A DNA stretch of 21,291 nucleotides from Deltaproteobacteria bacterium (GTDB taxonomy: Bacteria > Campylobacterota_A > Desulfurellia > JAGGSF01). The translations under genes were made by a program, and so were the position numbers. A model generated the notes under the pieces. The model was not told the DNA's origin and ran no database searches. It saw only the letters and a program-made list of their open reading frames with translations. Within the stretch, counting starts at the first letter, position 1. Every line of letters starts with the position of its first letter. Of this stretch, positions 1-17,032 are shown in pieces. The stretch covers positions 1-21,291 of the forward strand of contig JAGGSF010000057.1 of the NCBI GenBank assembly GCA_021159235.1, in the 5' to 3' direction.

Positions 1-1575
1 ATATATAGGTGCCTTTACTGGACCATAGACTATTTCTCTTTCTATCTTTTCTTTTAACAGTGCGGTGAATCTTTGCGCCTGTTCCATTAGTTTCTTTTCT
101 CTTTTTCCTTGAAATACGAATCTAATGAGATGAGTAAAAGGTGGATATAAAAGGGCCCTTCTATTTTTCAATTCTTCTTCAGCAAATGTTCTCCAGTCAT
201 ATTTCTTTACATACTCAAACAGTGGACTTAAAGGATTTAAAGATTGAACGATGACATTACCCTTATTTGCCATCTGAATAATCAAAGAAACTGCCTTTTC
301 CGTTGCTCGCACATCCGGTGAAGAAAGTAAAGCCTCAAAAAATGCAACCACCGTCAGGTTGATATGTGGAAATTCACATCCTTTTACCATCTGCGTACCT
401 ACTATTATATCTGCTTTTTCTATTTCTTTTAAAATTCTCTGGAAATCCTTCTTTTTTCTCGTTGTATCCCTGTCCACGCGCACGATATGAGCTTGAGGAA
501 ATGAATCTTCGAGTGTGTTATGTACTTTTTCCATTTCCATTCCACTTACAAGCACAATGACGCCTTTTTTTCTGTGCAGCGTGTTTCTTATCTCTCTTTT
601 TGCAAGAGAAGTAATAAGTTCACCTTTTTTTAAAGAAACAATATTTATCTGCGGCATATCTTTACTGCGCCCTTTAAACTCAAAAAGTCTGCATTCGCCA
701 TTTTTTGCCCTATATAGAGACTCTAAGGAAGGAGTAGAAGAAACGAGCATGATGGGAATGTTACTGTTTTTTGCACGCACAACAGCCACATCCCTAGCAT
801 TGTACAGTGGTGCAACTTCTTGCTTGTAAGATTCATCCTGCTCATTGTCTATTATAATAAATTTCATGTTTTTCAATGGTACAAATACACTGGAACGAGT
901 ACCTATAAGAACCTTTATTGTTCCTTTTCTTGCCCTGCACCACACATCAAACCGCTCTTTTGGCGTAAGTCGCGAATGATTTACAGCCACTACTTTTTTT
1001 CCAAACCTTCCAGTAAACAATTTGAAGAAATGAGATATGAAGAATATCTCTGGAACAAGAACAAGGGCTGAACCTCCATTTTTCAATACATACTCAACGA
1101 GTTTTAAACAAAGCTCTGTTTTTCCACCACCTGCATCAAATAGTAAAAAAGACTGAAATATAGGGTTTTTAATACAAGAACTTATTTCATGGTATGCTTC
1201 TTCCTGTTCCTTTAAAAGTTTACCTCCTTTTCCCCACACTATTTTCGTATCGTTTTCCACACCTATATTTATCTTTTGAAAGAGCTTCTTAGGGAAAGCA
1301 CTTTTGACAACCATGCCCAATGGGGCATTGTAGTATGAGGATGTAAATTGTATACTTTTCATGAGACCTTCTTCTATCAACGGTTCTTTATCTATTACTT
1401 TCCCTATCTTCTTTGTTTTAAACTGTGGATTTTCTACCTTCTCCCACACAATGCCTATCTTTTCCTCTCCGCGAAGGTCTACCTCCACTCTAACCCCTTT
1501 TTTTATTTCACCATCATACTCGTATACGAAACCCTCTATGTTAAGTGGGAAAACCACTTTAAAGTAACAAACCAT
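1..1575 (-). CDS. priA: PriA-like primosomal protein N', degenerate helicase (3' end cut by window)
   Basis: One open frame of 525 codons runs from an ATG at 1575, preceded by GGAGG at about 8 bases, off the left edge. PriA restarts stalled replication forks as a 3'-5' helicase. The N-terminal DNA-binding domain is recognisable (FPLNIEGFVYEY, residues 9-20; YYNAPLG, 81-87), as are GTRSS (225-229), DESYKQE (247-253), RVDRDTT (366-372), GTQMVKG (393-399) and YPPF (477-480). The helicase signatures are eroded. Walker A, normally GVTGSGKTE, reads FDAGGGKTE (146-154). DEEH reads DNEQ (243-246). The cysteine-rich zinc module expected between about residues 334 and 352 is absent. Motif VI, normally QVAGRAGR, reads QMANKGN (434-440). 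The frame is uninterrupted, so this looks like a maintained non-catalytic PriA rather than decay. Actinobacterial PriA proteins with lost helicase motifs are a known parallel. Family assignment is firm; loss of activity is inferred. Confidence 0.88.
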   Translation of the reverse strand, partial: MVCYFKVVFPLNIEGFVYEYDGEIKKGVRVEVDLRGEEKIGIVWEKVENPQFKTKKIGKVIDKEPLIEEGLMKSIQFTSSYYNAPLGMVVKSAFPKKLFQKINIGVENDTKIVWGKGGKLLKEQEEAYHEISSCIKNPIFQSFLLFDAGGGKTELCLKLVEYVLKNGGSALVLVPEIFFISHFFKLFTGRFGKKVVAVNHSRLTPKERFDVWCRARKGTIKVLIGTRSSVFVPLKNMKFIIIDNEQDESYKQEVAPLYNARDVAVVRAKNSNIPIMLVSSTPSLESLYRAKNGECRLFEFKGRSKDMPQINIVSLKKGELITSLAKREIRNTLHRKKGVIVLVSGMEMEKVHNTLEDSFPQAHIVRVDRDTTRKKKDFQRILKEIEKADIIVGTQMVKGCEFPHINLTVVAFFEALLSSPDVRATEKAVSLIIQMANKGNVIVQSLNPLSPLFEYVKKYDWRTFAEEELKNRRALLYPPFTHLIRFVFQGKREKKLMEQAQRFTALLKEKIEREIVYGPVKAPIY

Positions 1576-12757: not shown

Positions 12758-14038
12758 ATGAAACAGTCCCCGGCAAATAAGGTGAAAGAATACATAAGCT
12801 TCACAAGACAGTTAAAATTGGATCGGTTTGAGATAATACAGTATATCGTCAAATGGATTCCCTTTTCTATTGTGGTAGGAATAGCTACGGGTATAATGGC
12901 ATCAATCTTTGACTACACTATAGTAGAGATAAACAAAAACATTATAGCAAACAAAAAGATTTGTGTTATTTTTCCTCTTTCAGTCGGTATAATCACAGGA
13001 TTGATTATACATCGTTTTCCAGGTGTTTCGGGTCCTGGTATAAATTATATTATCTGGCACTTAAGAGAAAAAGGCAGGATACCTGCCATTTGCATGCTGG
13101 CAAAATTTGTGACATCTGCTCTCGCTCTTTCTGGCGCCTTCCTGGCGGGAAGAGAAGGTCCATCATTTTATATTGGGGCAGGAGTAGGCGAATGGCTGGG
13201 GAAAATATTCAAAATAACGGAAAAGGAGAAAAAATATACAGCTCTTATCGGTGCAGGAGCATTCACCGGGGCATTGTTTAAAGCTCCCTTAGGTGGTGCT
13301 ATATTCGCACTGGAAATTGGATATCTTTATGATATAGAGTACAAACCATTTGGTCAAACATTGATCGCCTCGGTAATAAGCTATTCAATTTTCTCCTGGT
13401 TTAGAGGTATGCATCCATTCATAGAAATAAATACTATTCCTGTATGGAACATAAAACATATACCATATTTCGTCCTCACAGGTATGGTTGCCTCCGCTAT
13501 AACTTATTTATTTGCGATTCACTACTCTTTACTAAACCGTATTTCTTTATCTATCAAACCAATTATAAGACCCATAATTGGAACTGTCATGGCCATTCCA
13601 CTGTTGATATTTATTATTTCAATAACCAATATTCATTTATTGTCTTTGCCTGTAAACTACACACCCTTGACGAACCTAATAGAATACATCTATCCTGTAT
13701 GGGAATTATTACTTATAATTGTGGTTACAATACTCTTCATAAGCCTTACTCTGGGATTTGGTATATCTGGAGGGTTGATACTTCCAAACTTGCTTATTGG
13801 GGCAGCAATTGGGAATATATTCGGCCACATATTTCCTGGTGAAATTGCTACATTTGTAATGGCTGGCATGGGATCCTCCTTAGCTGCAAGTGCAAAAACG
13901 CCATTAGCTGCTATCGTTCTATTAACAGAGATGTCAGGAACAAATGTGGTTATACCAATGGCGGTTGCAGTTATAACAAGTTATATCTTTAGTTTCGGTA
14001 TCAGTATGTATAAGGCACAGCAGATAATGCGTTCCTGA
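12758..14038 (+). CDS. ClC family anion channel/transporter
   Basis: A 426-residue polytopic protein of the ClC family without C-terminal CBS domains. The selectivity motifs are visible: SGPGIN (residues 91-96, in place of GSGIP), GREGP (131-135) with the gating Glu E133, GGLILP near the C-terminal third, and a conserved Tyr in GISMYKAQ matching the pore Tyr. The proton-glutamate of E. coli ClC (E203) aligns with I187 in FALEIGYLY, so coupling to protons may differ. It is not of the fluoride CLC-F type, whose motifs differ. No clear Shine-Dalgarno precedes the ATG at 12758; a GTG at 12781 is a possible alternative. It is probably transcribed with the upstream regulator. Confidence 0.9.
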   Translation: MKQSPANKVKEYISFTRQLKLDRFEIIQYIVKWIPFSIVVGIATGIMASIFDYTIVEINKNIIANKKICVIFPLSVGIITGLIIHRFPGVSGPGINYIIWHLREKGRIPAICMLAKFVTSALALSGAFLAGREGPSFYIGAGVGEWLGKIFKITEKEKKYTALIGAGAFTGALFKAPLGGAIFALEIGYLYDIEYKPFGQTLIASVISYSIFSWFRGMHPFIEINTIPVWNIKHIPYFVLTGMVASAITYLFAIHYSLLNRISLSIKPIIRPIIGTVMAIPLLIFIISITNIHLLSLPVNYTPLTNLIEYIYPVWELLLIIVVTILFISLTLGFGISGGLILPNLLIGAAIGNIFGHIFPGEIATFVMAGMGSSLAASAKTPLAAIVLLTEMSGTNVVIPMAVAVITSYIFSFGISMYKAQQIMRS

Positions 14039-16018: not shown

Positions 16019-16030
16019 TTGGAGGATATT

Positions 16031-17032
16031 ATGAGAACAGGTTATGAAGGTTTAGGCCCTCACAAAATGATGATAAGTGATGTTGTGCGTACCGCATCCT
16101 ACCGCAAGGCAATATTTGAGATAGTTAGAAGAGGAGATGTGGTGGCTGATATTGGCACAGGAGTTGGTATTCTGGCCTTTTTTGCCTGTCAGGCTGGGGC
16201 AAGCAGGGTGTATGCGATTGAGGCAAGTGATATAATTGAAGTGGCTAAACAAGCTCGAGTAGGCGGTTTAGAAAAACGGGTAACATTCATTAAAAGTTTC
16301 TCTGAAATGGCAAAATTACCAGAAAAGGTTGATGTTATAATATCGGAGATAATAGGTACCTTTGCTGTTGAGGAAAATATATTGGCTGTCATTTCTGACG
16401 CCAGGAAGCGTTTTCTTAAAGATAATGGAATCTTAATTCCCTCTTCTATTAAAATGATGATTGTGCCTGTAGAATCTTTTGATTTATATAAAGAGATTGA
16501 ATTCTGGAGTGAGGATATTTATGGAATTGATTTTTCTTCCATTCATAAGATGGCAGCAAACAACCGATATATTAAATCACTTGATCCAGGTTATTTTTTG
16601 AGCAAGCCTTTATCAATAAATAGTATTGATTTTTACACGGTGGAAAGCAAAGATTTATACATAAATAATATGGTTTCGTTTACAATTGAAAGAGCGGGCG
16701 TTCTACACGGTTTTGGAGGATGGTTTGAAGCCAATCTTTCCAAAAGCATCACGCTCAGTACCGCGCCTCCCAATCCAACTACCAGCTGGAAAAATGTATT
16801 TTTCCCTGTTGAGAAGCCCGTTGATGTTGAAAGCGGAGATAGTGTGGTGATAAGGATGGAGGTAAACCCCATAGGTATAGATTTTGTTTGGAACTGGGAT
16901 GTAGATGTTCTTAGCAAAGAAGGAAATAAGAAGGCTCAGTTTAGCCATAGCACACTTCAGGGTTCTCCTCATTCTGATGAGGGTTTTCCAGCCGGGCTCA
17001 TTTCCTGCTTATCAGAAGAAAGTCAGCCATAA
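16031..17032 (+). CDS. PRMT-like SAM-dependent methyltransferase (protein arginine methyltransferase fold)
   Basis: A 333-residue protein that follows the class I PRMT layout throughout. HKMMISDVVRTASYRKAIF at the N-terminus matches the eukaryotic Y-x-HxxML-D-RT-Y segment. Motif I is VADIGTGVGIL. The double-E loop IISEIIGTFAVEENIL keeps both glutamates at the PRMT spacing of nine. A C-terminal beta-barrel follows (FGGWFEANL, STAPPNPTTSWKN). The THW loop reads TSW, losing the His. PRMT-fold enzymes are uncommon in bacteria; the substrate is unknown and need not be protein. GGAGG with five-base spacing supports ATG 16031 over an in-frame TTG at 16019. Confidence 0.85.
   Translation: MRTGYEGLGPHKMMISDVVRTASYRKAIFEIVRRGDVVADIGTGVGILAFFACQAGASRVYAIEASDIIEVAKQARVGGLEKRVTFIKSFSEMAKLPEKVDVIISEIIGTFAVEENILAVISDARKRFLKDNGILIPSSIKMMIVPVESFDLYKEIEFWSEDIYGIDFSSIHKMAANNRYIKSLDPGYFLSKPLSINSIDFYTVESKDLYINNMVSFTIERAGVLHGFGGWFEANLSKSITLSTAPPNPTTSWKNVFFPVEKPVDVESGDSVVIRMEVNPIGIDFVWNWDVDVLSKEGNKKAQFSHSTLQGSPHSDEGFPAGLISCLSEESQP

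Follow-up and report, generated by a model that had tools for sequence, protein, structure and literature searches.

Which parts of PriA a cell needs is the question raised by a locus at one end of a metagenome-assembled genome (MAG) contig, which offers a natural test of it. The window analyzed here, 21,291 b in length, is the whole of contig G000:C16 of this genome (1.13 Mb, 122 contigs, rated 100% complete), whose host is a reduced-genome member of the class Desulfurellia related to Desulfurella. The zinc domain of PriA, or cysteine-rich region (CRR), is thought to act as an unwinding wedge and as a switch that exposes a partner site. An earlier note on this DNA had described a PriA homologue that lost both the zinc module and several helicase motifs, and had read it as a selected, ATPase-dead loader. 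By combining profile searches, comparison with congeneric and more distant PriAs, and structure modelling, we consider it likely that the protein is a selected pseudohelicase without the CRR, which would serve as a fork-binding platform for DnaB/DciA reloading without ATP or a CRR switch.

The protein scored 304.7 bits against the TIGR00595 profile (curated cut-off 230.35), which places it in the PriA family, and its PriA_3primeBD (PF17764) and PriA_C (PF18074) domains were both found above their cut-offs. The canonical PriA model PRK05580 matched it far better (372 bits for P0001) than PRK14873 (85 bits), which we take to be the actinobacterial-type PriA model; with that type, which the note had cited for helicase-motif loss, it nevertheless shares degenerate helicase motifs in an otherwise PriA-like protein. 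The 525 codons visible in the window are all open, as the note had stated. The window contig ends within priA, and the C-terminus is encoded at the start of contig G000:C24; the two contigs overlap by 7 nt (TATATAT), and their in-frame join gives 571 codons ending in ...DVDPMNFL-stop. Features of the gene are collected in Table 1.

Table 1. Parts of priA retained, altered or lost in the window and in contig C24
Feature	Position	Strand	Details
priA codons 1-525	1..1575	(-)	ATG at 1573-1575; open frame by translation
priA last 46 codons and stop	G000:C24:8-148		found by searching with a congener's PriA
3'-DNA-binding domain (3'BD), kept	1291..1575	(-)	residues 1-95; PF17764 56 bits; dN/dS about 0.06
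Degenerate Walker A FDAGGGKTE	1114..1140	(-)	residues 146-154; FGAAGSGKTE in the congeners; loss of one codon
Walker B/motif II DNEQ	838..849	(-)	residues 243-246; common to genus; class DEEN/DEEQ
Motif III SST instead of SAT	733..741	(-)	residues 279-281
Deletion junction: 61 codons with motif IV (NRRGF) and 8-Cys zinc module gone	543..544	(-)	between residues 344 and 345
Motif V GTQMV-KG, shortened by a one-codon deletion	379..399	(-)	residues 393-399; congeners GTQMVSKG
Motif VI QMANKGN instead of QVAGRAGREMPGK	256..276	(-)	residues 434-440; deletion of 6 codons, no arginine fingers left
PriA C-terminal domain (CTD) start, kept	1..189	(-)	residues 463-525; PF18074 33.4 bits

All four losses listed in the earlier note (Walker A, DEEH, the cysteines between residues 334 and 352, and motif VI) are seen in the translation and are real. 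The list was incomplete, since motifs IV and V are also affected and motif III reads SST, and the replacement of DEEH by DNEQ is not private to this gene, being found in both congeners too. None of the elements expected of an active helicase is retained: FDAGGGKTE stands in place of Walker A, DNEQ lacks the catalytic glutamate of motif II, and QMANKGN lacks the arginines of motif VI. The zinc-binding cysteine-rich module, which is near-universal elsewhere although the family cut-off does not demand it, is absent. Aligned with the DNA of the congeners, the portion of priA in the window shows indels of 3, 3, 6, 183, 6, 3 and 18 nt, and the C24 portion adds another of 3 nt; the 183-nt deletion takes out motif IV together with the zinc module. 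All eight are multiples of three; if neutral indels kept the frame in one case out of three, such an outcome would have a chance of about 1.5e-4.

That the zinc segment is merely masked by a frameshift or an assembly error, a possible flaw named in the note, was checked and rejected, as the 61 codons are missing from the DNA itself and the flanks align to the congeners. A broader artefact of assembly or binning, such as a strain-variant chimera at the contig end, is suggested by the contig break inside priA, by the 122 contigs of the MAG and by UvrD, which likewise runs into contig ends. We regard this explanation as very improbable: the changes are numerous, spread across 1.5 kb and all in frame, the break, itself a short overlap, does not lie at the losses, the neighbouring genes are intact, and both priA contigs match one uninterrupted stretch of a congener's contig (G001:C80). 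Scans of genome contigs for a second, independent assembly did not return the genus.

The two congeners (G001 and G002) possess full-length, syntenic PriAs of 646 residues, which are 96% identical to each other and 79-80% identical to the protein described here; with the same flanking genes and a clade supported at 100/100, the three are orthologs. Profile and homologue searches of the G000 contigs for a second PriA, canonical or otherwise, found none. The other TIGR00595 matches in this genome were rejected as second copies, their ORFs of 1052, 729 and 664 aa corresponding in length to Mfd, RecG and UvrB. The gene is the orthologous and only PriA of its genome.

Like the G000 protein, the congeneric PriAs have the 3'BD and CTD, lack the winged helix and carry DNEQ; unlike it, they retain Walker A (FGAAGSGKTE), motif IV (NRRGF), the eight zinc-module cysteines, motif V (GTQMVSKG) and motif VI (QVAGRAGRE). 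Since the congeners have the missing elements at the same locus, the G000 losses other than DNEQ are recent and private. The catalytic glutamate was lost at the base of the genus, when the rest of the motor was kept, because the class has DEEN/DEEQ and all three genus members DNEQ. The winged-helix domain is absent in all Desulfurellia PriAs (L007-L023), where the 3'BD leads directly into helicase lobe 1, and its absence is therefore outside the G000-specific finding. At the level of aligned residues, these comparisons show a stepwise loss: the winged helix class-wide, the catalytic glutamate of motif II genus-wide, and then the P-loop, motif IV with the zinc module, and motifs V and VI in G000. 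The genus thus presents a graded series from the canonical PriA of the class through DNEQ to a species without motor and zinc module.

How rare such a protein is was assessed in 289 genomes of at least 95% completeness from about 247 genera. A PriA-model match was found in 286 genomes and a PriA zinc-module match in 283. Of the six genomes in which the zinc module was not matched, one is G000; the other five lack PriA, and just other helicases scored there, weakly. A zinc-less PriA accordingly occurs in one of the 284 PriA-bearing genomes, and the evidence for a zinc-less, motor-less PriA comes from a single MAG; the note's statement that the combined loss is unusual agrees with this count. 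The zinc model picks up the module even in strongly degenerate PriAs (weakest E-value 2.5e-4). Six motor-degraded PriAs from other lineages were examined (L026 in G051, L148 in G222, L149 in G125, L150 in G060, L151 in G116 and L157 in G061), and all six keep a paired-cysteine zinc module, including L150 and L157, in which degradation is extreme. Motor loss recurs in nature; loss of the zinc module does not recur among the genomes sampled. Searches of the open-access literature turned up no description of a PriA that lacks the cysteine-rich region.

No PriA was found in the near-complete genomes G016, G080, G121, G187 and G220; for G016 this may be an assembly gap, and the other four genomes measure 0.8-1.3 Mb.

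The selective regime was estimated by domain from comparisons with the congeners. The dN/dS ratio is 0.061-0.065 in the 3'BD, 0.15-0.16 in the CTD and 0.26-0.28 in the motor, each pairwise value averaging the time before and after the losses; the N/S ratio differs between the motor and the binding domain (p = 0.01-0.02). Genes neighbouring priA have ratios of 0.08-0.27, and the C24 tail of priA is somewhat less conserved (0.17-0.20). We further counted changes at class-conserved columns, defined as those conserved in at least 90% of the class, with motor columns taken outside the zinc module. G000-only changes, polarised by amino acids at a class-level identity of only about 40%, affect none of the 18 columns of the 3'BD and none of the 23 of the CTD, whereas 18 of the 107 motor columns are hit (13 substituted, 5 deleted; Fisher p = 0.0035). 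The two congeners combined have two private changes at such columns. Among canonical PriAs of the class, conservation of the motor exceeds that of the DNA-binding parts in each of 78 pairs (identity ratio 1.04-1.52), and this order is reversed between G000 and its congeners (0.90-0.91). The ratio of 0.97 between the two congeners, which is based on few differences, gives no more than a hint that the constraint on the motor had already eased when DNEQ arose.

The frame is intact and, as judged from these substitution patterns, purifying selection is centred on the 3'BD and CTD, and the motor is relaxed; the DNA-binding domain is kept, as the note had claimed. The pattern fits a selected pseudohelicase rather than a decaying gene. 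Decay would mean that restart is dispensable in a reduced genome and that priA is at an early stage of loss, its frame open by chance. The sampled small genomes without PriA, the raised dN/dS of the motor and the fall of all eight indels in one lineage speak for it. The in-frame length of every indel, 571 codons without a stop, the low ratio of the 3'BD, the lack of G000-only changes in the 41 binding-domain columns and the modelled restoration of a RecA-like lobe at the excision point speak against it, and we consider it unlikely. Because pairwise dN/dS spans the time before the losses, decay of very recent onset retains a small share of the probability.

An AlphaFold model of the protein (pLDDT 91.9, pTM 0.90) places a strand at residues 338-342, a short turn and a helix at 345-358 at the former site of the zinc module, and 505 of 525 residues align to fork-bound E. 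coli PriA (8fak; Z 31.6, rmsd 3.2). Excision of the module is predicted to leave a complete RecA-like lobe; as the alignment contained homologues, and AlphaFold, steered by them, would fold a decaying protein likewise, the model shows compatibility rather than stability. We use the term pseudohelicase for this combination of lost motor motifs with a PriA fold, as modelled, and DNA-binding parts kept under selection.

Among candidate partners, for which the gene content was checked one family at a time, genes for DnaB and DciA are present in G000, as is one SSB-family gene. A search of the genome with the IstB/DnaC model found no DnaC/DnaI-like loader; it matched just long ORFs of other sizes, the best being of DnaA size (432 aa, 1.8e-9). 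UvrD is present as two pieces at contig ends, together with an ORF of RecG size.

The SSB of all three genus members ends in EEKDDVPL (L170 at G000:C7:25611-25916; L167, L168), whereas the class has EDEDIPF/DEDVPF; the usual terminal Phe of this partner-binding tip is replaced by Leu in the same genus that has DNEQ in PriA.

The selected pseudohelicase that we favour may work as follows. Judging from its motifs, it would neither hydrolyse ATP nor unwind DNA. The 3'BD, the CTD and a pair of inert RecA-like lobes would still allow it to recognise branched forks or D-loops, and the protein could then provide a static landing platform for DnaB and the ATP-independent accessory loader DciA. A lagging arm that is duplex would have to be cleared by another helicase, such as UvrD or the product of the RecG-sized ORF. 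As to the earlier reading, selection holds up (domain dN/dS, in-frame indels), DNEQ predates the other losses, and ATPase death and a loader role are plausible from the motifs and by analogy, respectively.

When E. coli PriA binds a fork, its CRR swings so that a pore for lagging-strand ssDNA forms and the PriB site is exposed; the CRR is required for PriB docking and DnaB loading, and CRR mutants fail in the latter (PMC10175261). The ATPase-dead variant K230A was used in that DnaB-loading assay, and the motor is therefore dispensable for loading in vitro (PMC10175261). The E. coli variants K230A/K230R and the winged-helix deletion 6dcr are engineered parallels to the G000 protein, the former in ATPase loss, which for G000 is predicted, and the latter in lacking the winged helix. 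Because the CRR pore and switch of E. coli cannot operate in a PriA that lacks the CRR, handover to DnaB/DciA must use other surfaces. Given the E. coli requirement, a lost restart function is conceivable, and the protein may have been selected for another role, such as passive fork-capping or SSB/fork binding, with DnaB recruitment gone. The missing PriB docking site mapped to the CRR (PMC10175261) and the retained DNA-binding parts would suit that role; PriB, DnaT and DnaC, however, are partners of the E. coli type, so that docking in a bacterium with DciA may take place elsewhere than at the CRR, and PriA of Deinococcus radiodurans binds DnaB directly (PMC4504706). We consider this other role quite unlikely.

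The closest known system is the pseudohelicase PriA of D. radiodurans, whose ATPase is not measurable and whose unwinding is negligible. It binds both forks and DnaB, and combines degenerate motor motifs I and II with retained fork-binding parts in a host without clear PriB/DnaT (PMC4504706). DciA, present in G000, was also detected in our Deinococcus-Thermus control genomes. The two proteins differ in that the described departures in D. radiodurans concern motifs I and II, whereas in G000 the damage extends over motifs I-VI and includes deletion of the zinc module, and in that the G000 loss is private to one species of a genus otherwise keeping these elements. Fork and DnaB binding are known for the former protein and would be predicted for the latter. 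Degenerate PriAs of other lineages (L148, L149, L151 and others) differ from the G000 protein in keeping their zinc modules. DnaB loading by the G000 PriA is suggested by gene content and the Deinococcus precedent.

That PriA here restarts replication without ATP hydrolysis or a CRR switch, docking DnaB/DciA directly on a static fork-bound scaffold, has in our view about an even chance of being correct. If true, the CRR pore/switch mechanism would not be universal, and a minimal PriA would consist of the 3'BD, inert lobes and the CTD. Together with its two zinc-bearing close relatives, the G000 protein forms a natural separation-of-function pair that raises the question of whether bacteria with DciA require the zinc domain, or ATP, to load DnaB.

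Two further differences from the congener were observed in the window. A protein-arginine-methyltransferase-like ORF, judged from its translation (16019-17032), is not represented on G001:C80, its flanking genes being near neighbours there. A long ORF at 12758-14038, whose translation has the look of a ClC-type chloride channel, is missing at the syntenic G001:C80 site, the flanks being 68 b apart.
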